Origin: Desulfuromonadales bacterium | GTDB lineage: Bacteria > Desulfobacterota > Desulfuromonadia > Desulfuromonadales > BM103 | Length of the DNA stretch: 32,954 nucleotides | NCBI GenBank assembly: GCA_023701265.1 | Contig: JAMPXI010000016.1 | Coordinates: forward strand, 1-32,954 | Direction of reading: 5' to 3' | Part shown: in pieces, positions 2,133 to 14,969 of the stretch | Position numbering within the stretch: the stretch's first letter is position 1 | Layout: each line of letters opens with the position of its first letter | Notes under the pieces: model-generated | The model's database searches: none | Seen by the model: the letters and a program-made list of their open reading frames with translations, nothing else | Told to the model about the DNA's origin: nothing | Position numbers and translations under genes: made by a program

Positions 2133-3404
2133 TTAGCTTATCGGGCATCGTCCCCGCTTCACGTGATCTTCCAGTTCGTCGCCGAATTTCGTCAGCAGGG
2201 AGCCCACTGGCCCCATCGCCCCTTCGGCAAGGGCGCAGAACGAGCGGCCGCTGATGTTTTTCACCTGGTCGCGGAACATGTCGAGCAGTTCCTGGCTGCC
2301 GCGCCCGGCCTCGATCTCCTCCAGCAGCCAGACCACCATCGGCAGACCGTCGCGGCACGGCGTGCACCAGCCGCAGCTTTCGCGGGCGAAGAAGCGCGCC
2401 AGGTTCAGCGTCGCCGCGACCATGCAGGTCGTTTCGTCGAACACCGTGATCCCGGCGGTGCCGAGGCGGCTCCCCGCCTGCTCCATGTGCACGTGATCGA
2501 GGGGGGTGTCAAGCTGTGCCGCAGTCAGAAACGGTGTCGACGCCCCGCCCGGCAGGCAGGCCTTGAACGTGCGCCTGCCACGCACTCCGCCACCGCACTG
2601 CTCGACCACTTCACGCAGCGGAATCCCCATCGGCAGCTCGAAGCATTCGGTGCGCTCGAGATGCCCGGAAAGCCCGACCAGCAGGGTGCCTGCCCCCTCG
2701 GGGGTGCGCGCCAGGCTCCGGTACCACTCGGCGCCGCCGGTGAAAATGTGCGGCACGTTGGCGAATGTCTCGACGTTGTTGACGTTGGTCGGCTTGCCGA
2801 ACAGCCCAAACTGTGCCGGGAACGGCGGCTTGCTGCGCGGGTTCGGCCGGCGTCCCTCCAGGCCGTTGATCAGGGCGGTCTCTTCGCCGAGGATGTAGCG
2901 GCCGGCGCTGCGGTGCACGTGCAGCTCGAAGCCGAATCTCGAACCGAGGATGTCGCGGCCGAGATAACCCTTGCCTGTCGCCTCGGCGATGGCGCGCTCG
3001 ACATTTTGCGCACAGGTCTCATAGGCATAGCGCAGGAACACGTAGCCCACGGGGATCTGCATGGCGTAGGCGGCGATCGCCATCCCCTCGACCAACTGGT
3101 GCGGGTCGGCCAGCAGCAGCTGATGGTCCTTGTAGGTGCCCGGCTCCATCTCGTCGCCGTTGGCCAGCAGGTACTTCTCCCCCGGTTGGTCGGTCGGGAA
3201 GAACGACCACTTGAGTCCGGTCGGAAAGCCGGCCCCGCCCCGCCCGCGCAGGTTGGCGGCCTTGACCTGCTCGCGCACCTCCTGCGGCGCCATCTTCAGC
3301 GCGGCGCGCAACCCCTGGTAGCCGCCGCCGGCCTCGTACTCGGCCAGGAAAGCGGTTGCGCCGGGTCGGCGGTTCTTGAAGAGAATTTGCGGGTAATTGT
3401 TCAT
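2133..3404 (-). CDS. nuoF: NADH-quinone oxidoreductase subunit F (NuoF), NADH/FMN-binding
   Basis: NuoF is the subunit that oxidises NADH, holding FMN and the [4Fe-4S] cluster N3 at the tip of the peripheral arm. The 423-residue product is near the usual length. It carries the glycine-rich nucleotide-binding loop GRGGAGFPTG (residues 54-63), the GDEMEPGTYKD FMN-site segment, and the cluster ligands C344, C347 and C350 (CGWCTPC) with C390 (SFCALAEG). The start at 3404 agrees with the family N-terminus. The upstream bases show no clear Shine-Dalgarno sequence. A twin-hairpin repeat separates it from nuoE, so translation or mRNA stability of this part of the operon may differ from that of nuoABCDE. 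Confidence 0.97.
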   Translation of the reverse strand: MNNYPQILFKNRRPGATAFLAEYEAGGGYQGLRAALKMAPQEVREQVKAANLRGRGGAGFPTGLKWSFFPTDQPGEKYLLANGDEMEPGTYKDHQLLLADPHQLVEGMAIAAYAMQIPVGYVFLRYAYETCAQNVERAIAEATGKGYLGRDILGSRFGFELHVHRSAGRYILGEETALINGLEGRRPNPRSKPPFPAQFGLFGKPTNVNNVETFANVPHIFTGGAEWYRSLARTPEGAGTLLVGLSGHLERTECFELPMGIPLREVVEQCGGGVRGRRTFKACLPGGASTPFLTAAQLDTPLDHVHMEQAGSRLGTAGITVFDETTCMVAATLNLARFFARESCGWCTPCRDGLPMVVWLLEEIEAGRGSQELLDMFRDQVKNISGRSFCALAEGAMGPVGSLLTKFGDELEDHVKRGRCPIS

Positions 3405-3431
3405 TCAGTTGAAATCAATTCGTGTGTCCCG

Positions 3432-3490
3432 GTAGGGGCAGGCCCCCGTGCCTGCCCTGCTTGTGGGCGGCCACAGGGGGCCGCCCCTAC
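3432..3490. repeat. REP-like twin-hairpin palindromic repeat between nuoE and nuoF
   Basis: A 59-base element is bounded by GTAGGGGC and GCCCCTAC in inverted orientation. It contains two hairpins, each with a perfect 8-bp stem and a 6-base loop: GGGCAGGC/GCCTGCCC and GGGCGGCC/GGCCGCCC. It begins immediately after the nuoE stop codon and fills most of the nuoE-nuoF gap. The shape is that of a REP/BIME-type or small MITE-type dispersed repeat. Only one copy is in this window, so dispersal across the genome is inferred. Confidence 0.8.
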
Positions 3491-3491
3491 A

Positions 3492-3974
3492 TCATGCCTC
3501 ATTGCGGTAACCATCAAGAATTGCATCGATCTTCTCAGGCGTCAGCGTCCCAAAGGTGGTCAGACCGATCATCATCGCCGGCGCCTCGCCGCAGGCGCCG
3601 AGGCAACAGGTCGGCAGCAGGGTGAACATTCCATCGCTGGTGGTCTCACCGAAACCGATGCCGAGGACCTTCTGCAAGTGCGCGGCAATCGCGTCCCCGC
3701 CGTCGGCCCAGCAGCAGATCGAATCGCAGACATGGATCACCCGTTTCCCCACGGGCCGGCGGAAGATCTTGTCGTAGAAGGTGGCGATCTCCTCGACCTC
3801 CACCGGTAGCACGCCGAGCAGTTCGGCAACCAGATCGACCCCGGCGTCCGGCACCCAGCCGTGGTGTGCCTGAACCGCCCGCAACGCATCGACGATCAGC
3901 TCGTGCGGATGCTCGATCGCCGCAGCCTTGGCGCGGAAGGCATTGACCTGGACCTGTGGCAGCAATTCGCTCAT
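3492..3974 (-). CDS. nuoE: NADH-quinone oxidoreductase subunit E (NuoE), thioredoxin-like [2Fe-2S]
   Basis: NuoE holds the N1a [2Fe-2S] cluster beside NuoF in the NADH dehydrogenase module. The 160-residue protein has the expected four ligands in two pairs, C83-x4-C88 and C124-x3-C128, in a thioredoxin-like fold, and ends with the usual [14 protein letters not shown] helix. I start it at the ATG at 3974 ([10 protein letters not shown]), not at the 4508 start in the ORF track, because the extra 178 residues are a shadow of nuoD. With this start, its ATG overlaps the nuoBCD stop by 4 bases (ATGA), implying translational coupling. Confidence 0.96.
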
Positions 3975-6334
3975 CGGTCCAGATCCGCCAAAACGAAATC
4001 GACGGCGCCGAGGATGGTGATCAGGTCGGAGAGCAGCCAGCCCCTGGACATGGCCGGCAGCGCCTGCAGGTGCGGGAAACTCGGGGTGCGGATGCGCAGC
4101 CGGTAGGGGATGCTGTCGCCATCGCTGACCAGATAGTAGCCGCACTCCCCCTTGCTCGACTCGATCGCCCGGTAGCATTCGCCGCGCGGCGGCGTCATCC
4201 CGCGACTGACGTTGAGGAAGTGAGGGATCAGCGTCTCGATGTCGTTGAGCCCGGCCTCGCGCGGCGGGTAGGTGTAGCGGCAGTCGGCGTTGACATAGGG
4301 GCCGCCCGGCATGTCCGCCGCCGCCTGTCTGACGATGCGCAGGCTCTGGCGCATCTCGTGCAGGCGCACGATGTAACGGCTGAAGCAGTCGCCGCTGCCA
4401 TGGGTCGGGATGTCGAAATCGAAGCGCTCGTAGCCCGAGTAGGGCATTTTCTTGCGCAGATCCCAGGGGATCCCGCAGGCGCGCAGGTTCGGTCCGGTCA
4501 TTCCCCAATCGAGAGCCTGGTCGAGGGTGGTGACGCCGATTCCTTCGGTGCGCCGGCGGAAGATCGGCCCGTCGGTCATCAGCTTGTCGAAGTCATCGAC
4601 GGTCCTGGCAAAGTCGCGGGTGAAGGCGTCCACGGTCTCGCGCCAGCCTGCGGGGAGGTCGGCCGGCAACCCGCCGATCCGGAACCAGGCCGGGTGCATG
4701 CGTCCGCCGGTGATCAGTTCGACGATGTCGAAAATCCGCTCGCGGGCGTCGAAGGCATAGAAGACCGGGGTCATGGCGCCGACGTCGTGGGCGTAGGTGC
4801 CGAGCCACACCAGGTGGTTGGCGATGCGGAACAGCTCGCAGAGCAGCACGCGCACCACCTGCGCCCGCTCCGGCACGGTGACGCCGAGCAGCGTCTCCAG
4901 CGGGTAAAGGTAGGCCAGGTTGTTCTGCACCCCGGAGATGTAGTCGATCCGGTCGGTGTACGGAATGAACTGGTTCCAGTGCTGGCGTTCGCCGATCTTC
5001 TCGGCCCCACGATGATGGTAACCGAGGTCGACGTCGATATCCTCGACCTCCTCGCCGTGCAGCTTGAGCACCAGGCGCAGCACACCGTGGGTGCCGGGGT
5101 GGTGCGGGCCGAGGTTGAGGATCATGGTGTGCTTGTCGGCCCGCAACGGCCCGGCCGCCGGTTTCATCGCCAGCGCCGCTGCAGCCGTGAAGGGGGCCAT
5201 CTCGGTCGCGCGCGACGGATGCTCCTTGCGTAGCGGGTGCCCGTCCCACTGCTCCGGCATGAGGATGCGGCGCAGGTCGGGGTGGCCGGTGAAGCGGATG
5301 CCGAACATGTCGAAGGCTTCGCGCTCGTACCAATTGGCCGAACTCCAGACCCCGGTGGCGGTCGGCGCCTCGGGATAATCGCCATGCAGCGGCACCTTGA
5401 CCCGTACGTAGCCCGGCTCGTCGAAAGAGAGCAAGTGGTAGACCAGGGTGAAGGGGTGCTCCGGACGACGATGGCGCTCGCGTTCGTCGATGGCCGTGAG
5501 GTCTTCCAAGCGGCGGAAACGGCGCGGCGCCCCTTCCTTGAGAAAGCGCAGCAGGTTGATCGCATCGGCCGCTTCCGCTCGGAAGGTCGGCATGTCGGCG
5601 GCATCATCCTCGCGAACCCGGCCGCCGAAACGCTCGAAAACGGCGTGGCGCAGAGCGGGGATTGACGGCGAAAATTCGATCCTGGGTTGCGGTGGGCGCC
5701 AGATCTCGCCGTCGCGCCGCCCCCAGAAGCGCGGATGCTGTTGCGCGCTGCCGCGCAGCGGCGTGTTGCCGTAGCCCGGACCGCGCGGGTCACGACTCTT
5801 GCTGACGCCGTCGACCAGCACCGGCCCGGTCGACCCCTCGCTACCGCCCTGAAGGCCGAACACCTTGCGGGCCGGACGCTCCTCCTTGGCGATCTTCTCC
5901 TGGAGGAGCAGCAGCCCCTGGATGAACGCCTCGGGTCGCGGCGGGCAGCCGGGAACATAGACATCCACCGGCAGGATCTGGTTGATCCCCTGCATGACGC
6001 TGTAGACGTCGTACATCCCCCCGGAGTTGGCGCAGCTCCCCATGGCCATGACCCACTTGGGATTGGCCATCTGTTCGTAGACGCGCAGGATGGCATCACC
6101 CATCCGCTTGAACGGGGTCCCGGAGATAATCATCAGGTCGGCTTCGCGCGGGGAGTTGCGCAGCACCTCGGCGCCGAAACGGGCGATGTCGAAGCGCGGC
6201 GTCATGCTGGTCATCATCTCGACAAAGCAGCACGACAGGCCGAAGAACATCGGCCAGAGACTGTTCTTTCGCCCCCAGTTGATGGCGTCGTCGAGAGAGG
6301 TGAGAACGATGTTGTCGGGCAGGGCGTCGTTCAT
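3971..6334 (-). CDS. nuoBCD: NADH-quinone oxidoreductase subunit B/C/D triple fusion (NuoBCD)
   Basis: One 787-residue chain joins three complex I subunits that form the connecting Q module. Residues about 1-180 are Nuo[23 protein letters not shown] and [10 protein letters not shown] supply the four cysteines of cluster N2 next to the quinone site. Residues about 200-395 are NuoC, with the signature [17 protein letters not shown] and [10 protein letters not shown]. The remainder is NuoD, opening with [15 protein letters not shown] and [11 protein letters not shown], which form part of the quinone cavity. A basic, glycine/proline-rich linker joins B to C. The start at 6334 overlaps the nuoA stop by 4 bases; the ORF-track start at 6388 would read back into nuoA and is rejected. 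Fused NuoCD is common, and NuoBCD is known in some Geobacter-type genomes. Confidence 0.95.
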
Positions 6335-6735
6335 TCGCCGCTCCGCCGGTCGGCGCTGGGCCCCCAGTCGAGGCCGCCCGATTTCCACAGGTGGACCAGG
6401 CCGAGGAACAGCACCAGAATGAAGAACGCCACCTGGGCGAAGCCGGCCCAGCCGAGCCGGTCATAGGCGACCGCCCAGGAGACGACGAAGATCATCTCGA
6501 CGTCGAAAACGATGAAAAAGATAGCCACCAGGTAGAACGGCACCGGTTCGCTCAGGCGCGCCGGCCCGGTCGGCTCGATCCCCGACTCGTAGGCTTCGTC
6601 CTTGGCCTTGCTGTGGGTGCGCTGGCCGATCCCCCAGGAAAGGAGCATCAGCAGGCCGACGAGGCCGACGGCGATCGCGGTGTACAGCCCCAGCGACAGC
6701 AGCGCTTCGAACGATGGCAGGGTCTCGATTGGCAT
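6331..6735 (-). CDS. nuoA: NADH-quinone oxidoreductase subunit A (NuoA)
   Basis: NuoA is a small membrane subunit of complex I near the quinone chamber. The 134-residue product has three hydrophobic helices (about 15-37, 66-88 and 97-115) and the conserved acidic loop [12 protein letters not shown] followed by [16 protein letters not shown], diagnostic for NuoA. It is the first gene of the nuo operon, which reads leftward, and overlaps nuoBCD by 4 bases. No strong Shine-Dalgarno sequence precedes the ATG at 6735. A weak promoter candidate lies about 65 bases upstream, between this gene and rnhA. Confidence 0.96.
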
Positions 6736-7305: not shown

Positions 7306-7676
7306 TGGCGCTCGCTTGAGAATGGAGTGATAATGCCCAATCGTAATGGCAGTCGCGCATTGTGTCCACCGTCACGTCGCGGTTCGCCCGACAAAAAGGC
7401 GCACGAGGAAACCCCCGCGCGCCATTGCCCGTCCCGTCGGCACGACCTTGTGCCTGGTGATGCTGATACGATTAATTCAAAAGCACCGATCGTGCCAACC
7501 TTAAGGGAATGGGGGAATACGAACAACGTCTGCCTGTAACTGTCGGTCGTTGCCTAATTTGTCGGCGCCGGGCGGCCCGTTTTTTCGACATGCCGGGGAA
7601 AACTTCCTTGACAGTGCCCCGCGGGTTATTTCATCGTGAGACATTGTTTTGCTGACGATGCATTGCCGGAGTGTTC
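7306..7676. other. non-coding gap between rnhA and the Ehr operon
   Basis: This 371-base divergent intergenic region holds no convincing reading frame; the ORFs crossing it are out-of-frame extensions of rnhA shadows. It must contain the promoters for rnhA (minus) and the Ehr operon (plus). A perfect TTGACA occurs at 7608-7613, but the bases 16-18 positions downstream (TTCATC/TCATCG region) are a poor -10. A short GC stem followed by six T residues (about 7569-7586) is at best a weak terminator. It could hold a regulator site or small RNA that I cannot identify. Confidence 0.5.
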
Positions 7677-9647
7677 ATGATCTGGTTTGTTGCAGGGATG
7701 CTGCTGACCGCGTTGTCCGGAGTGCCGGGGCTGTTCGCCGACCGGTTCGGGCGCGGCGGTGAGCGGCTTGCCTGTCTGCTGGTGCTGGCCGGAACGGCAA
7801 GCGCGACCGGCGGAGTGATCGCTGCCCTGGCCTCAGGGGCACCGGCCCTGTTGACGCGGCCATGGTCGGTTCCCGGTGGCGAACTGGCCCTGCGGCTCGA
7901 CCCTCTCGCCGCGCTGTTCATCCTGCCGCTGTGCCTGGTGGTGGGCGGCGGCGCGGTCTACGGCCTCGGCTACTGGCCGCAGCGTGATCACCCCGGCAAC
8001 GGCCGGCGCTTCCGGCTCTTCTACGGGCTGCTCGGCGCCGCCATGATGTTGGTGCTGGCCGCCGACAACAGCCTGCTCTTTCTCTTCTCATGGGAAGTGA
8101 TGGCGGTCGCCGCTTTCTTCCTGGTCACCACCGAGCAGGAACGCGCCGAAGCCCGCCGGGCCGGCTTCATCTACCTGGTTACAGCCCATGCCGGAGCCCT
8201 GGCCCTGTTCGCCATGTTCGCCCTGCTGGCACAGGAGACCGGTTCCCTGCACTTCCCGGCCGCGGCCAGCCTGGCCGGCGGCAGCGCCACCCTGCTGTTC
8301 CTCCTCGGTCTGTTCGGCTTCGGTTTCAAGGCCGGTCTGATGCCGCTGCACATCTGGCTGCCGATCGCCCACGCCGCCGCCCCCAGCCACGCCTCCGCAC
8401 TCCTTTCGGGAATCGTCCTCAAGACCGGGATCTATGGCTTGCTGCGGCTGACCTCGTTTTTCGCCGTCATCCCTGCCTGGTGGGGGTGGACGGTGCTGCT
8501 GCTCGGGGTGGTTTCCGGGGTTTTCGGCGTAGCACTGGCGCTGGCCCAGCACGACCTGAAGCGCCTGCTTGCCTACCACAGCGTCGAGAACATCGGCATC
8601 ATCACCATCGGTATCGGCCTGGCCCTGCTCGGGCGCAGCTTCGGCATGAGTGAGCTGACACTGCTGGGGATGTCCGGCGCGCTGCTGCACGTGGTCAATC
8701 ACGGGCTCTTCAAATCACTGCTTTTTTTCAGTGCGGGGTCGGTGGTCCATGCCACCGGCAGCCGCGAAATCGATCACTACGGTGGTCTGCTCCGGCAACA
8801 GCCATGGACGGCGGTCTGTTTTCTTGGCGGGGCCGTGGCGATCTGCGGCCTGCCGCCGTTCAACGGCTTCGTCAGCGAGTGGCTGATCTACCTGGCGGCC
8901 TTCGGCGCCAGTCGGGGCGAGGGCCTGAGCCTGCGCCTGGCGGTGCTTGCCGCGCCAGCCCTGGCGCTGATCGGTGGGCTGGCGGTCGCCTGCTTCGTCA
9001 AGGTGTTCGGCGTGACCTTCCTCGGCGCGCCGCGTTCCGCGGCGGCGGCAGCCGTCCACCACGATGCCGCGCCAAGCATGCGCGGACCGATGCTGACCCT
9101 GTTGCTGGCCTGTGCCTGGATCGGCCTGCTCCCCGGCACCCTGGCGCCGCTGCTGCAAAGCGCGGTAGCAACCTGGGTGATGCCGGCTAAGGCTGTCAGC
9201 CTGGCGGCGCCCCTTGCGCCGCTGCCGTTGGTCGGCGCGACCGGGTGGGTGCTGCTGATCTATCTTGCCGGGCTCGGTTGGTGGCTGCATCGGCGCACCC
9301 GGCAGGCGCCGCGCGATGTGTCGACCTGGGGGTGTGGCTATGTGGCGCCGACGCCGCGCATGCAGTACACGGCCTCGTCGTTCGCCGACTCCCTGGTCAG
9401 CCAGTTCCGTTTTGGCCTGTGGACCGAGCGCCATGGCGGCAAGGTCAAGGGGCTTTTCCCGGCGACCGGGGAGTTTGCCAGCCACACGCCCGACGCGGTG
9501 CTCGACCGTGCCCTGCTGCCGGGGTTCCGGAGGCTGGCACGCGGCTGCAGCTGGTTGCGCGCCCGCGTCCAGAACGGCCGGGTGCCCACCTATCTGCTGT
9601 ATGTCGCCCTGACCCTGCTGATCCTGCTGATCGTGACCGCGCGCTGA
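7677..9647 (+). CDS. hyfB: Ehr/hydrogenase-4 subunit B-like antiporter-type membrane subunit
   Basis: This 656-residue, very hydrophobic protein belongs to the NuoL/MrpA-type ion-translocating family in its HyfB/HycC form. It has about 14-16 predicted helices, the antiporter signature PLHIWLPIAHAAAPSHASA, the lysine-bearing QHDLKRLLAYHSVENIG segment, and the HyfB-type C-terminal tail with WGCGYVAPTPRMQYTASSF. Length is close to E. coli HyfB. I chose the ATG at 7677 because GGAG at 7668-7671 lies 5 bases upstream; the GTG at 7671 overlaps that site. It is the first gene of a six-gene plus-strand operon and probably corresponds to EhrA of Geobacter (name from memory). Its expected role is to move protons or sodium ions across the cytoplasmic membrane. 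Confidence 0.9.
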   Translation: MIWFVAGMLLTALSGVPGLFADRFGRGGERLACLLVLAGTASATGGVIAALASGAPALLTRPWSVPGGELALRLDPLAALFILPLCLVVGGGAVYGLGYWPQRDHPGNGRRFRLFYGLLGAAMMLVLAADNSLLFLFSWEVMAVAAFFLVTTEQERAEARRAGFIYLVTAHAGALALFAMFALLAQETGSLHFPAAASLAGGSATLLFLLGLFGFGFKAGLMPLHIWLPIAHAAAPSHASALLSGIVLKTGIYGLLRLTSFFAVIPAWWGWTVLLLGVVSGVFGVALALAQHDLKRLLAYHSVENIGIITIGIGLALLGRSFGMSELTLLGMSGALLHVVNHGLFKSLLFFSAGSVVHATGSREIDHYGGLLRQQPWTAVCFLGGAVAICGLPPFNGFVSEWLIYLAAFGASRGEGLSLRLAVLAAPALALIGGLAVACFVKVFGVTFLGAPRSAAAAAVHHDAAPSMRGPMLTLLLACAWIGLLPGTLAPLLQSAVATWVMPAKAVSLAAPLAPLPLVGATGWVLLIYLAGLGWWLHRRTRQAPRDVSTWGCGYVAPTPRMQYTASSFADSLVSQFRFGLWTERHGGKVKGLFPATGEFASHTPDAVLDRALLPGFRRLARGCSWLRARVQNGRVPTYLLYVALTLLILLIVTAR

Positions 9648-9665
9648 GGGGAGAAACCGACTTTC

Positions 9666-10586
9666 ATGGAGATGCTGGCCCGCACCGCGTTGCACCTGAC
9701 CCTGCTCCTGCTCTTCGCCCCGCTGCTGCAGGGGGTGATCGTCAGGACCAAGGCGCTGTTTGCCGGTCGGGTCGGGGCCCCGCTACTGCAGCCGTATTAC
9801 GATCTGGCACGGCTGCTGCGCAAGGAGTGCGTTTTCAGCCGCACCACCACCTGGGTCTTCCTGGCCGGACCGGCGGCCGGCGTGGCGGTGCCGATCCTCG
9901 CCGCCCTGTTCATGCCGTTCGGCGCGCTCCCCGCCCCGATTGCCTTCACCGGCGACCTGCTGCTGTTCGTCTATCTCTTTGGTGTGGCACGTTTTTTCAC
10001 CGTGGCGTCGGCGCTGGACACCGGTTCGAGTTTTGAAGGGATGGGGGGGGCCCGCGAGGTGACCTTTGCCTGTCTGGCGGAGCCGATCGTGCTCTTCTGC
10101 CTGATCGTCCTGGCCTGCATCGCCGACGCCATGTCGCTCACCGCGCTGCTCGGTCCGCACCTGGCCGCAACCTGGCGCGGACCCGCCGGCCTTTCCCTCG
10201 GGCTGGTGGTGGTCTGTCTGCTGGTGGTCCTGCTGGTGGAGAATTCGCGCATCCCCTTCGATGACCCGAACACCCACCTGGAACTGACCATGATCCACGA
10301 AGTCATGGTCCTCGACCACAGCGGACCGCCCTTCGCGATGGTACTCTACGGCGCGGCCCTCAAGCTGATGGTGCTCGGCGCCCCGATCGTGCGCCTGCTC
10401 CTGCCGGTGAACACCGGTTTCTGGGTGGTGGATGCCTTGGTGTTCCTGGGCGGGATGCTGCTGCTGGCGGTGCTGGTTGGCGTGATCGAATCGATCATGG
10501 CCCGTTTAAAGCTGGTGCGCATCCCGCAAGTGCTGATCGGTACCACCATGCTCTCCGGGTTCGCCCTGGTCCTGGTGCTGCGATGA
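9666..10586 (+). CDS. hyfC: Ehr/hydrogenase-4 subunit C-like (NuoH family) membrane anchor
   Basis: The 306-residue protein is a NuoH/HyfC/HycD relative, the membrane subunit that docks the soluble module and links it to the ion-pumping subunits. It has about eight helices and the cytoplasmic-loop signature NSRIPFDDPNTHLELTMIHE, whose acidic residues are conserved in group 4 hydrogenases and complex I. An early QPYYDLARLLRKE segment is also typical. It lies 18 bases after the HyfB-like gene. A GGGGAG upstream is rather far (about 12 bases) from the ATG, so translation may depend partly on coupling. It probably corresponds to EhrB. Confidence 0.9.
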   Translation: MEMLARTALHLTLLLLFAPLLQGVIVRTKALFAGRVGAPLLQPYYDLARLLRKECVFSRTTTWVFLAGPAAGVAVPILAALFMPFGALPAPIAFTGDLLLFVYLFGVARFFTVASALDTGSSFEGMGGAREVTFACLAEPIVLFCLIVLACIADAMSLTALLGPHLAATWRGPAGLSLGLVVVCLLVVLLVENSRIPFDDPNTHLELTMIHEVMVLDHSGPPFAMVLYGAALKLMVLGAPIVRLLLPVNTGFWVVDALVFLGGMLLLAVLVGVIESIMARLKLVRIPQVLIGTTMLSGFALVLVLR

Positions 10587-10611
10587 ACGCGGCCGCCGGA
10601 GGCGTGAAGCC

Positions 10612-11250
10612 ATGACCGAACTGAGCAACCTCTGTCTGCTGCTGGTCATCCTGGTCAACTTCTTCGCCCTGGGGAGTTCCCGACTCGGTGCCTGCATCCA
10701 TGCGGTGGCCCTGCAGGGGGCGGTGCTGGCGCTACTGCCGCTGGCCACCCACGGCCTCAGCGTTCACACCCTGTTGCTGGCCGCCGGCGCCCTGGCCCTC
10801 AAGGGGATACTGATCCCCTGGCTGCTGCTGCGCGCGATCCGCGAGGTGCGCATCCGCCGCGAGATGGAACCGCTGATCGGTTTCGTCCCGACCCTGCTGC
10901 TCGGTGCGCTGGCCACCGCCGGGGCGTTCATCTTTGCCGACCTTTTGCCGCTGATCGACGCGCACCAGGGTGGACTGTTCATCCCGACCTCCCTGGCGAC
11001 CCTGTTCGCCGGATTTCTGCTGCTGATCAGCCGGCGCAAGGCGATCACCCAGGTGGTCGGCTACCTGATCCTGGAGAACGGCATCTTCATCTTTGGCATT
11101 CTGCTCGCCGAAGCGATGCCGCTGATGGTCGAGGCCGGCGTGCTCCTCGACCTGCTGGTTGCCGTGTTCGTCATGGGGATCGTCCTCGACCAGATCAACC
11201 GTGAATTCTCGACGCTCGACACCGAGCAGCTCTCCGCCCTCAAGGAATGA
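10612..11250 (+). CDS. hyfE: Ehr/hydrogenase-4 subunit E-like (NuoK-related) membrane protein
   Basis: The 212-residue protein has about six to seven hydrophobic helices and matches the HyfE family, whose C-terminal half resembles NuoK. The segment KAITQVVGYLILENGIFIFG carries the conserved buried glutamate, and the protein ends with an IVLDQINREFSTLDTEQL tail typical of HyfE. GGAGG lies about 8 bases upstream of the ATG. It follows the HyfC-like gene by 25 bases and precedes the HyfF-like gene by a single base. It probably corresponds to EhrC. Confidence 0.88.
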   Translation: MTELSNLCLLLVILVNFFALGSSRLGACIHAVALQGAVLALLPLATHGLSVHTLLLAAGALALKGILIPWLLLRAIREVRIRREMEPLIGFVPTLLLGALATAGAFIFADLLPLIDAHQGGLFIPTSLATLFAGFLLLISRRKAITQVVGYLILENGIFIFGILLAEAMPLMVEAGVLLDLLVAVFVMGIVLDQINREFSTLDTEQLSALKE

Positions 11251-11251
11251 G

Positions 11252-12682
11252 ATGATGCTCGCCGCCCTGATCCTTCTGCCGCTGGCGCTCGTCCCGGTCG
11301 CCTGGCTCGCTCCCTGGTACCGGGTGCGCTCGTGGCTGCTGCCGTTGGCCGGCACCATTCACCTGCTGCTGGTGGTGCTGGCACTGGGGAACGTCCCCGA
11401 CGCCGCTCCCGGCGAATGGATCGGTCTCGACCCGCTGTCGCGCCTGGTGCTGCTGGTTGCCAGCCCGCTCTACCTGGGGTGTGCCCTGTATGCGGTCGAC
11501 TACCTGGAGATGCGCCGCGAACGCGGCAACCGGACCATGGTTCCCTGCCTGCTGCTGTTCCTCTCCGCCCTGAGCATGGCGGCGATGTCCCGCCATCTTG
11601 GCCTGATGTGGCTGGCGCTGGAGACGACGACTCTGGCCAGTGCGCCGCTGATCTACTTCAATCGCAACCGGCTCTCCATCGAGGCGACCTGGAAATACCT
11701 GCTGATCTGCTCGGTGGGCATCGCCCTGGCCATGCTCGGCCTGCTCTTTTTCGCCTATGCCGCCCTGCGCGGCGGGGTGCCGGTCAGCCTGCTGCTCAGC
11801 GATCTGCTGGCCGCCGGTCCGGTCCTCTCCCGTCCCTGGCTGCATGCCGGCTTCGTCCTGCTGCTGGTCGGTTTCGGCACCAAGATGGGACTCGCGCCGC
11901 TGCATGCTTGGAAGCCGGACGCCTACGGCGAGGCGCCGGGGCTGGTCGGTGCGCTGCTCGCCGGGGGGCTGACCAGTCTGGCCTTCCTTGCCGTGTTGCG
12001 GACCATGCAGGTGATGGCGGCGGCCGGTGCCCAGGGAGTGGCCCGCCCCCTCCTCCTTGGCCTGGGGCTCCTCTCCCTGCTGCTGGCGGCGCTGTTCATG
12101 ATGCGCCAGGGCGATTTCAAGCGCATGCTCGCCTACTCCAGCATCGAACACATGGGGCTGTTGGCGGTGGGGGTCGGGATCGGCGGGCTGGCGACCTTCG
12201 GCGCGCTGCTGCACATGATCAACAACTCCTTGGCCAAAGGCTGCCTGTTCCTGAGCGCCGGCAACATTCACCGCGCCTTTGCCAGCAAGCGCCTTGCCGA
12301 CGTGCGCGGGGCGCTGGTCGCCCTGCCGTTCTCCGGGGCGCTCTTCCTCACGGCTTTCCTGGCCGTGACCGGCACGCCGCCCTTCGGCATTTTTCTGAGC
12401 GAGTTCACCATCCTGCGCGGCATCTTCGGCGCCGGGCAGCTCTGGGTCGGCCTGGCGGTGCTGGTGCTGCTGGCCACCGTGTTCATCGGCATGGGCGCCT
12501 CGGTGCTCGCCGTCTCCCAGGGTGAGCCGACCGAGCGCGACCTGGCCTTCACCGACCGCTTCCTGCTGGTCGCTCCGCCGCTGCTGCTGCTGCTTGCCGT
12601 CCTGTTCCTCGGCCTGTACATTCCCGAGTCGTTGCGTCTGCTGCTCGAGCAGGCGCAGGCGCTGGTCGAGGGGGGGACATGA
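11252..12682 (+). CDS. hyfF: Ehr/hydrogenase-4 subunit F-like antiporter-type membrane subunit
   Basis: This is a second NuoN/NuoM-type ion-translocating subunit, 476 residues with about 14 helices. It has the family signature GLAPLHAWKPDAYGEAPG, a helix-breaking glutamate in LGLMWLALETTTLASAP, and the lysine motif GDFKRMLAYSSIEHMGL. The ORF track begins at 11159 inside the previous gene. I place the start at the ATG at 11252, 5 bases after AAGGA; a second ATG directly follows at 11255 and is equally possible. Its stop overlaps the next gene by 4 bases (ATGA). It probably corresponds to EhrD. No HyfD-like third antiporter subunit is present. Confidence 0.9.
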   Translation: MMLAALILLPLALVPVAWLAPWYRVRSWLLPLAGTIHLLLVVLALGNVPDAAPGEWIGLDPLSRLVLLVASPLYLGCALYAVDYLEMRRERGNRTMVPCLLLFLSALSMAAMSRHLGLMWLALETTTLASAPLIYFNRNRLSIEATWKYLLICSVGIALAMLGLLFFAYAALRGGVPVSLLLSDLLAAGPVLSRPWLHAGFVLLLVGFGTKMGLAPLHAWKPDAYGEAPGLVGALLAGGLTSLAFLAVLRTMQVMAAAGAQGVARPLLLGLGLLSLLLAALFMMRQGDFKRMLAYSSIEHMGLLAVGVGIGGLATFGALLHMINNSLAKGCLFLSAGNIHRAFASKRLADVRGALVALPFSGALFLTAFLAVTGTPPFGIFLSEFTILRGIFGAGQLWVGLAVLVLLATVFIGMGASVLAVSQGEPTERDLAFTDRFLLVAPPLLLLLAVLFLGLYIPESLRLLLEQAQALVEGGT

Positions 12683-14196
12683 GTCCGCTGCGCGCCGCAG
12701 TCCCGCTGGCCAACGGCGGTGCGGTCCCCCTGGCCAATCTGCCGCTGCTCGGCCGGGGGCATTTCACCGGGGCGCTGCTCGCCGAAGTTGCCGAGGGGGC
12801 GCGGGTTGCCGCCTGTTTTGCCGTCCCCGTCGGCAGCGCCCTTGAACTGTATGCCGTGCTGGCCCGCGATGCGCACGGCGATCTGGCGATCCTGCGCACC
12901 GAAATCGGCGGCGAATATCCCTCGCTGGCGTTGCGCTGTCCCGAACTGCAGCTGTTCGAGCGCGAGATCGCCGAACAGTTCGGCAGCATCCCGACCGGTC
13001 ACCCCTGGTTCAAGCCGGTGCGTTTTCACCGCAGCTGGAACGAGCGGGACGCCTGGGGGCGCGGTTTGGAGCGGCCGCAGCCGGCGGTGCAGGAGTTCTA
13101 CCGGGTGGAGGGGGAAGAGGTCCACGAGGTGGCGGTCGGCCCGGTGCATGCCGGGGTGATCGAGCCGGGGCACTTCCGTTTCCAGTGCCACGGCGAGCAG
13201 ATCATGCACCTGGAGATCGCCCTCGGCTACCAGCACCGCGATGTCGAACGGCTGCTCCTTAACGGCCCGCATCCGGCCACCCCCCACCAGATCGAGACGG
13301 TCGCCGGCGATACCAGCATCGGCCACGCCAGCGCCTGGAGCCAGGTGAGCGAGGCGCTGGCCGGCAGTGACCTGCCCGCGCGCGGCGCGGCGCTGCGCCT
13401 GGTAGCCATGGAACTGGAGCGGCTCGCCAACCACGTCGGCGATATCGGCGCCCTGGCCGGCGACATCGGCTTTCTTCCGACCGCGGCCTACTGTGGCCGG
13501 CTGCGCGGCGATTATCTGAATGCCACCGCCGTGCTGTGCGGCAACCGTTTCGGCCGCGGCCTGGTGCGCCCCGGCGGAGTGGCCGCCGACCTGAGCGATG
13601 AGCAGGCCGCCGCCCTGCGCGAGTGCCTCGTTGCGGTGGCTCGCGACACCCATGGCGCCCTGGAGCTGTTCTTCGACACGCCGTCGGTGCTTGCCCGCCT
13701 CGAAGGAACCGGGCATGTCGCCGTCGAAGACGCCGCCGCCGTCGGGCTGGTCGGCGTGGCGGCCCGCGCCTGCGGCCTGCAGCGTGATGCACGCAAGCAC
13801 CACCCGCTGGGGGCCTACCGGACGGCCGGGATCGAACCCGCCGTCAAATGGGGCGGCGATGTCTTTGCCCGGGCCGCGGTCCGGCAGCGGGAGATCGAAG
13901 ATTCGCTGGTCCTGATCGACAGCACCCTGGCCGCGCTGCCGTCGGGGCCGGTGCGGGCGGAGGGCGGAGCGCCACGGCCAAAAGCTCTGGCTGTGGCGCT
14001 GGTCGAGGGCTGGCGGGGGGAGATCGTCCACGCCGCCCTGACGGATGCTGCCGGCCGCTTCTCCCGCTACAAGATTGTCGACCCGTCGTTCCGCAACTGG
14101 ACCGGGTTGGCGCTGGCGCTGCGCGGCGAGCAGATTTCCGACTTCCCGCTATGCAACAAGAGTTTCAATCTGTCGTACTGCGGGTTTGACCTGTAG
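12679..14196 (+). CDS. ehrL: hydrogenase-like large subunit lacking the [NiFe] ligands (EhrL-type)
   Basis: The 505-residue protein is a fused NuoC-NuoD-like large subunit of group 4 hydrogenase architecture. Residues about 1-145 are the NuoC-like part; VGPVHAGVIEPGHFRF (about 153-168) and MHLEIALGYQHRDVE (about 176-190) mark the large-subunit domain. True group 4 enzymes have R-x-C-G-x-C-x3-H next and D-P-C-x2-C near the C-terminus. Here the first is replaced by GDTSIGHASA (about 210-219) and the second by NKSFNLSYCGFDL, leaving one cysteine (C501) of the usual four. There is no C-terminal extension for maturation protease cleavage and no hyp gene nearby. It therefore should not carry a Ni-Fe centre. 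This matches the Ehr complexes described in Geobacter, whose reaction is unknown. Confidence 0.88.
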   Translation: MSPLRAAVPLANGGAVPLANLPLLGRGHFTGALLAEVAEGARVAACFAVPVGSALELYAVLARDAHGDLAILRTEIGGEYPSLALRCPELQLFEREIAEQFGSIPTGHPWFKPVRFHRSWNERDAWGRGLERPQPAVQEFYRVEGEEVHEVAVGPVHAGVIEPGHFRFQCHGEQIMHLEIALGYQHRDVERLLLNGPHPATPHQIETVAGDTSIGHASAWSQVSEALAGSDLPARGAALRLVAMELERLANHVGDIGALAGDIGFLPTAAYCGRLRGDYLNATAVLCGNRFGRGLVRPGGVAADLSDEQAAALRECLVAVARDTHGALELFFDTPSVLARLEGTGHVAVEDAAAVGLVGVAARACGLQRDARKHHPLGAYRTAGIEPAVKWGGDVFARAAVRQREIEDSLVLIDSTLAALPSGPVRAEGGAPRPKALAVALVEGWRGEIVHAALTDAAGRFSRYKIVDPSFRNWTGLALALRGEQISDFPLCNKSFNLSYCGFDL

Positions 14197-14213
14197 TCGG
14201 GTAGAGAAGGACT

Positions 14214-14969
14214 ATGCTGAAGATCATTCGTGAACGTATCCGCCAGGGGCACCGCACCGCCAGCTATCCCAAGGAGGCGCCGGTGCTCCCCGAGCGTTTC
14301 CGTGGCGCTCCGCGGATCGTTCCGGAACTTTGCCGCGAAGGTTGCGGCGACTGCATCAAGGCCTGTCCGTTCGGGGCCATTGAAGGAACCGCCAACGGTC
14401 CGCGCCTCGACCTCGGCCGGTGCATCTTCTGCGGCGCCTGTGCCGCGGCCTGCCCGCACGGCGTGCTGGAATTTTCCCGTGACCACCGTCTGGCCGCGCG
14501 CCGCCGCGAGGATCTGCTGGCTGGTGCCGACGGGCACCGTCTGGCCGGGGCACTGGAGGGGGAGATGCGTCGCCTGTTCGGGCGATCGCTGAAGCTGCGC
14601 CAGGTCTCGGCGGGGGGGTGCAATGCCTGCGAGGCCGATCTCAACGTCCTCAATACCCTGGTCTTCGACCTCGCCCGCTTCGGCATCCAGTTCGTTGCCT
14701 CGCCGCGCCACGCCGACGGCCTGATGGTCACCGGGCCGGTCACCGAGAACATGCGTTTCGCCCTGCTCGAAACCTACGCGGCGCTCCCCGCGCCAAAGCT
14801 GGTCATCGCCTCCGGTGCCTGCGCCATCGCCGGCGGTCCGTTCCGCGGTTCTCCCGAGTGCCACGATGGCATCGGCGACCTTCTTCCCGTCGACCTTTAT
14901 ATCCCCGGCTGCCCGCCACACCCCTACACCGCCCTCGACGGTCTGCTGCGCCTGCTTGGCCGGCTGTAA
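14214..14969 (+). CDS. ehrS: ferredoxin-small subunit fusion of the Ehr complex (EhrS-type)
   Basis: The 251-residue protein joins a two-cluster ferredoxin domain (residues about 35-95) to a NuoB/HyfI-like small subunit (about 125-251). The second ferredoxin motif is canonical (C70-x2-C73-x2-C76-x3-C80-P). The first has a wider spacing, C40-x3-C44-x2-C47-x3-C51-P. The small subunit keeps all four ligands of the proximal [4Fe-4S] cluster: C136 and C139 (GGCNACE), C203 (GACAIAGG) and C233 (PGCPPHP). So electrons can plausibly pass from a soluble donor through three clusters to the EhrL site. It is the last gene of the operon, followed directly by a strong terminator hairpin. Confidence 0.88.
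   Translation: MLKIIRERIRQGHRTASYPKEAPVLPERFRGAPRIVPELCREGCGDCIKACPFGAIEGTANGPRLDLGRCIFCGACAAACPHGVLEFSRDHRLAARRREDLLAGADGHRLAGALEGEMRRLFGRSLKLRQVSAGGCNACEADLNVLNTLVFDLARFGIQFVASPRHADGLMVTGPVTENMRFALLETYAALPAPKLVIASGACAIAGGPFRGSPECHDGIGDLLPVDLYIPGCPPHPYTALDGLLRLLGRL

Follow-up and report, generated by a model that had tools for sequence, protein, structure and literature searches.

Described Ehr complexes and the window operon

Ech-hydrogenase-related (Ehr) complexes without [NiFe] ligands have been described in Geobacter (PMC7894505, PMC8691401, PMC13194489), in cyanobacterial siblings (PMC6349859), in Nitrospira (PMC10284858, PMC12342949), in ammonia-oxidizing archaea (PMC10432482), and in Mycobacterium (PMC6728331), and HydDB lists Ehr as a non-hydrogenase class (PMC5037454). 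The Geobacter proteins are made in vivo, at levels that vary with the electron donor (PMC7894505), and the function of the described complexes is left unresolved in these papers (PMC7894505, PMC6349859, PMC10284858, and others). Few unexplained relatives of complex I are as widespread as Ehr. Here we analyze an ehr operon of a Desulfuromonadales bacterium, located in contig JAMPXI010000016.1; the 32,954-nucleotide stretch analyzed is called the window, and all coordinates are positions within it. Assignment of the window open reading frames with Pfam and NCBIfam gives a six-gene operon on the plus strand, ehrA-ehrB-ehrC-ehrD-ehrL-ehrS. The initial annotation had proposed a group 4 energy-converting hydrogenase plan at 7677-14969 related to the Ehr complexes of Geobacter, and this holds: the operon encodes HyfB-, HyfC-, HyfE-, HyfF-, and HyfG-like subunits plus one HyfH+HyfI-like fusion, and constitutes a complete Ehr complex of the family already named there. 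It shows the group 4-type operon, the antiporter-like subunits, and the large subunit without [NiFe] ligands by which Ehr is defined (PMC6349859, PMC10284858). As Ehr complexes without these ligands have been described before, the window complex is a new member of the Ehr family. The residue map presented below narrows the chemistry of its pocket, which has no [NiFe] site, no complex I quinone pair, an Asp changed to Asn, and a new Lys.

The operon shares its subunits and its loss of [NiFe] ligands with Ehr of Geobacter sulfurreducens (GSU0739-0745), but it has one ehrA where Geobacter has EhrA-1 and EhrA-2, it has no gene for a helix-turn-helix (HTH)-EIIA protein in front of ehrA, and it adjoins a nuoBCD/E/F cluster. 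The best match in fold and sequence is to E. coli Hyc/Hyf (group 4a), with which Ehr shares the small-subunit CxxC and the counterparts of Glu193 and Arg478. In contrast to Hyc/Hyf, EhrL lacks the [NiFe] ligands, has Asn497 for Asp529, and has neither a C-terminal extension nor a protease partner, HyfH and HyfI are fused in EhrS, and there is no HyfA/HycB or FdhF. Complex I (NuoCD/NuoB/NuoH) belongs to the same superfamily, has the same pump residues, and likewise has no [NiFe] ligands, whereas Ehr lacks its quinone His and Tyr and its NADH module, and has CxxC for CC at the proximal cluster. Pfam and NCBIfam matches of the window proteins gave no hydrogenase maturation, NADH, formate, or CO module among the operon genes, and the NADH module NuoEFG is thus absent from the ehr operon.

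EhrL lacks all four [NiFe] ligands

The large subunit and the two loops that replace its ligand motifs are as follows.

ehrL, 12679..14196, plus strand: HycE/HyfG-like large subunit without [NiFe] ligands, 505 aa (PF00346, E 2.9e-39)
EhrL TVAGDT (residues 207-212), 13297..13314, plus strand: replaces RxCGxC; counterpart of HycE RVCGIC 239-244
EhrL NLSYCG (residues 497-502), 14167..14184, plus strand: replaces DPCxxC; counterpart of HycE DPCYSC 529-534

Among proteins of solved structure, the best phmmer match to EhrL is the HycE subunit of E. coli formate hydrogenlyase (7z0s_E, E 7e-48). HycE is also the closest fold, with a template modeling (TM) score of 0.88, to the AlphaFold2 (AF2) model used here, which has a predicted local distance difference test (pLDDT) score of 92.6 from 86 sequences; a model from 7 sequences gave a pLDDT of 61. 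For the residue map, window EhrL was aligned with E. coli HycE, HyfG, and NuoCD and with 87 type 1 EhrL, the relatives being drawn from 80 loci of GTDB genomes. The columns of the ligands C241, C244, C531, and C534 of HycE are occupied in EhrL by A209, T212, S499, and G502, so that all four ligands are replaced, as the initial annotation had stated. Its placement of NLSYCG was correct; the start of the other string it gave, GDTSIGHASA, lies three residues past that of the exact counterpart, an immaterial offset. A true group 4 hydrogenase from the same search (L055) shows the four cysteines and the canopy Asp in the expected columns, indicating that the alignment is sound. Four cysteines at shifted positions, set beforehand as the refuting case, are excluded by the residue map and by the absence of a CxxC anywhere in window EhrL, in which Cys501 lies one residue ahead of a ligand position. 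The protein ends at Leu505, three residues past the former second motif, leaving no C-terminal extension to cleave, and no HycI-type protease gene was seen among the operon genes. None of the 87 type 1 EhrL in the alignment has a [NiFe] ligand set. The replacement motifs hardly vary among relatives belonging to many phyla, indicating that the replacement is not due to chance. The sequence is incompatible with the Ehr complex being a [NiFe] hydrogenase.

The host has [NiFe] hydrogenase large-subunit genes (PF00374) on three contigs as well as HypA. The ligand cysteines were therefore not lost for want of nickel maturation, and this explanation was rejected.

The former [NiFe] site is a conserved pocket

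Two further loops line up with functional elements of the hydrogenase and complex I pockets, for which residue roles were taken from PMC9474812 and PMC7684303.

EhrL beta1-beta2 loop (residues 153-169), 13135..13185, plus strand: Glu162 retained; Ile161 at the quinone-His position of complex I
EhrL EGWRGE (residues 443-448), 14005..14022, plus strand: carries the retained canopy Arg446

The proton-donor Glu193 in the beta1-beta2 loop of HycE corresponds to E162 in 87/87 EhrL, and the canopy Arg478 of HycE is retained as R446. H252, R363, and E405 are proton-path residues common to complex I. The quinone His (NuoCD H224) and Tyr (NuoCD Y273) are replaced by I161 and G210, both in 87/87. The canopy Asp, Asp529 in HycE, has been described as strictly conserved across the superfamily, and complex I mutated at this residue is impaired in reducing quinone (PMC9474812). 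In 86 of the 87 type 1 EhrL, and in two distant type 2 Ehr, this position is Asn (N497), a change of which we found no report in the open-access papers searched. K494 stands where Gly was, again in 87/87.

Mean conservation is 0.97 for the beta1-beta2 loop, 0.98 for the EGWRGE loop, and 0.83 for the loop of the first motif, compared with 0.66 for the whole of EhrL, and the 20-mer of the C-terminal signature DFPLCNKSFNLSYCGxDL ranks 4th of 486 in conservation. The ratio of nonsynonymous to synonymous changes (pN/pS) is 0.09-0.28 against two congeners, indicating purifying selection and bearing out the view that selection has kept the complex. The high conservation of the replacement loops and these ratios together indicate that the EhrL pocket is a maintained, selected site, and they rule out a pseudogene. 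Five cysteines outside the ligand positions, C170, C272, C287, C492, and C501 (13186-14181), are conserved in ~95% or more of type 1 EhrL. A new metal site formed by them is unsupported as a general feature, since type 2 EhrL lacks most of them.

The Fe-S clusters of EhrS are complete here and lost repeatedly in the family

The small subunit carries three sets of cluster ligands.

ehrS, 14214..14969, plus strand: 2x[4Fe-4S] ferredoxin domain (HyfH-like) fused to a NuoB/HyfI-like small subunit (PF12838 and PF01058)
EhrS ferredoxin-type ligands, 14331..14453, plus strand: cluster I C40, C44, C47, C80; cluster II C51, C70, C73, C76
EhrS proximal (N2-position) ligands, 14619..14912, plus strand: C136, C139, C203, C233, with hydrogenase-type CxxC spacing

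All 12 Fe-S cysteines are present in window EhrS. The proximal motif GGCNACEAD has the CxxC form, aligning ungapped with HycG/HyfI, and not the tandem CC of NuoB. The Fe-S chain is thus intact in the window, as the initial annotation had said, but its further argument that an intact chain marks a redox machine kept by selection does not generalize, because clusters have been lost repeatedly elsewhere in the family. Losses were counted among 143 EhrS and mapped on a tree whose alignment omitted the Cys columns. Cluster I, on the ferredoxin side, is lost in 18 of them in about nine changes, the losers including L008-L010, from the GTDB family of the window organism outside its genus, and Geobacter argillaceus (L032). 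Cluster I ligands are also missing at loci L034, L076, L077, L090, L092, L098, and L100. Cluster II is nearly always retained.

The ligands of the proximal cluster are retained in 137/143 EhrS and lost in six, through two events on the tree. The four positions read CACW in L062, DVCW in L082, and SEEW in L087 and L169 in a Verrucomicrobiota clade, and NEEW in L033 and DAS- in L208 (cut by the contig end) in a Planctomycetota clade; Cys233 is changed to Trp in both clades, as checked at the codon level. A sequencing error is unlikely, since whole codons differ in EhrS of six separate genomes. Inside the Verrucomicrobiota clade EhrS has a pN/pS of 0.17-0.24, indicating purifying selection. Both clades have the EhrL C-terminal signature throughout and retain every tested pump residue, and AGDTxxxH is kept where checked, with one T-to-V change in L087. 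The draft genomes of L033, L082, and L087 show no second Ehr. We found no report of an Ehr without the proximal cluster in the open-access papers searched. Such a natural loss in two clades bears on whether the pocket and the pump need electrons, and hence on coupling in complex I.

The membrane subunits retain the pump residues

The four remaining genes encode the membrane part.

ehrA, 7671..9647, plus strand: HyfB/NuoL-like antiporter-type subunit, 658 aa, start at GTG 7671 or ATG 7677 (PF00361, E 4.5e-54; top NCBIfam match hydrogenase 4 subunit B; E142, K220, K297, K348, and E403 conserved)
ehrB, 9666..10586, plus strand: HyfC/NuoH-like membrane anchor (PF00146, E 1.3e-29)
ehrC, 10612..11250, plus strand: HyfE-like, NuoK-type subunit (NCBIfam hydrogenase 4 membrane subunit, E 1e-24; the PF00420 match, E 4.5e-5, is below the cut-off)
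ehrD, 11252..12682, plus strand: HyfF/NuoM-like antiporter-type subunit (PF00361, E 1.3e-47), start at ATG 11252; the listed open reading frame begins upstream at TTG 11159

EhrA retains E142, K220, K348, and E403 and EhrD retains E155, K242, K321, and E415 family-wide, matching HyfB/HyfF, and the acidic path of EhrB, common to HyfC/HycD, is retained family-wide as well. The alignment therefore agrees with the earlier description of the pump parts as intact, key residues being retained in all antiporter-like and NuoH-like subunits.

Possible reactions of the complex

The reading we favor, with a probability of about 0.5, is that the Ehr complex encoded here is functional and that, as a member of the superfamily of complex I and group 4 hydrogenases, it couples ion translocation to a redox reaction of a small substrate other than H2. 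From knowledge of the family and residue conservation we infer the electron flow, the ferredoxin partner, the ion translocation, and the nature and direction of the reaction. A ferredoxin-like carrier would most likely supply electrons to the two ferredoxin-type clusters of EhrS, from which they would pass via the proximal cluster to EhrL, where a conserved polar pocket (E162, D211, N251, H252, R446, K494, N497, S499, and Y500) would take the place of the [NiFe] site. There the small substrate would be reduced or oxidized, and the reaction would drive, or be driven by, ion movement via EhrB, EhrC, EhrA, and EhrD. This reading is favored by the subunit plan, by the lack of any NADH or formate input among the operon genes, by the retained pump residues and the 12 Fe-S cysteines, by the selected pocket loops, and by E162 and R446, which are kept as in hydrogenases. 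A quinone bound in the manner of complex I is probably not the substrate. With Asn in place of the canopy Asp and with the new Lys494, the canopy would be more positive, which would suit an anionic substrate. Two points weigh against the oxidoreductase reading: the idea of an anionic substrate is drawn from two residue changes in an alignment, and an obligate electron route to EhrL fails to explain the two clades that keep the EhrL loops and the pump without proximal ligands. Because these clades keep both, Ehr may, at least there, be able to work without electron delivery to the pocket, which might then bind a ligand that gates ion movement, making the complex a non-redox relative of complex I; we put this forward tentatively, as a rather doubtful proposal. 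A primarily non-redox role, in which EhrL binds a ligand and gates ions, as an antiporter or a ligand-driven transporter, with a secondary or regulatory part for the Fe-S clusters, is unlikely. It would account for the two stable losses of the proximal ligands under purifying selection in genomes with no second Ehr (G048, G049, and G050) and for the roughly nine losses of cluster I, but the great majority of EhrS retain the proximal ligands, cluster II is kept nearly always, and the proximal-loss clades may be specialized derivatives.

The initial annotation had named a quinone as a possible electron acceptor, as in complex I, which would make Ehr an ion-pumping ferredoxin:menaquinone oxidoreductase with the quinone in the former [NiFe] pocket. 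This is consistent with the strong homology of fold and large subunit to NuoD, with the shared proton-path residues H252, R363, and E405, and with the futalosine-route menaquinone genes of the host (two PF02621 matches). MqnA/D was found in 13/26 Ehr hosts and MenD above cut-off in one. The spirochaetes Rectinema subterraneum (L113) and Treponema sp. (L114), which have neither above cut-off, carry a UbiA gene between UbiD- and UbiX-like genes, which may point to a quinone that is unknown or salvaged, or to a different prenylated product. Quinone binding as in complex I is nevertheless disfavored by the pocket, where all 87 type 1 EhrL have Ile and Gly for the quinone His and Tyr and where Asn stands for the canopy Asp, a residue important for quinone reduction (PMC9474812), and by the proximal motif, which is CxxC and not CC. 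Neither MqnA/D nor MenD was found above cut-off in 12/26 hosts, and one Omnitrophota metagenome-assembled genome (MAG) with Ehr has no UbiA-family protein either, where MAG gaps or unknown pathways are possible. A quinone reaction is doubtful. A reductase of sulfane sulfur or polysulfide like Pyrococcus MBS, with the chemistry at the proximal cluster, is improbable. MBS is a group 4 relative that has likewise lost the complete [NiFe] ligand set and has no quinone residues (PMC7684303), but it keeps two of the four Cys where Ehr keeps none, and its catalysis needs a three-Cys proximal cluster with a motif three residues shorter, whereas EhrS has four Cys and an ungapped CxxC. The counterpart of MbhL Glu21 is also absent from MBS, whereas the beta1-beta2 Glu is present in EhrL (E162). 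Formate-linked H2 evolution resembling that of formate hydrogenlyase was proposed for Geobacter from proteomics, since G. sulfurreducens has higher levels of Ehr proteins on formate (PMC7894505); it is very hard to reconcile with the lack of [NiFe] ligands throughout the type 1 relatives, and no formate dehydrogenase gene or other redox partner recurs beside ehr among the 80 loci.

Phylogeny and gene neighborhood

In a quick tree, window EhrL falls inside a 91-row type 1 clade with Geobacter, Geomonas, and members of many phyla, with a support of 100 in the Shimodaira-Hasegawa-like approximate likelihood ratio test (SH-aLRT). It is ~53-57% identical to Geobacter and Geomonas EhrL bearing the same C-terminal signature. 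Some genomes carry, beside type 1, a distant second type of Ehr, with EhrL 36-40% identical. At L169:1280-11050 (G187) the type 1 ehrD and ehrL are separated by a whole type 2 ehr operon, and the two types also adjoin each other in L079 and G006.

The only recurring extra genes at the 80 ehr loci are a second ehrA and the HTH-EIIA gene, other gene clusters found in three or more of the loci being antisense open reading frames or scattered. The latter gene, which combines an excisionase-type HTH with a phosphotransferase system (PTS) EIIA(Ntr)-like domain (PF12728 and PF00359), lies near ehr in 36/80 loci, mostly directly upstream (for example L029:4253-4963), and a GxGxAxPH-type motif is retained in 25/36. 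The encoded protein may tie Ehr expression to PTS phosphorylation.

Directly upstream of ehr in the window, 2133-6388 on the minus strand encodes a fused nuoBCD (805 aa), a nuoE-like frame, and nuoF, which belong to a separate complex I. NuoBCD is close to ehr in both congeners as well, and a second NuoD of the host is on contig C128.

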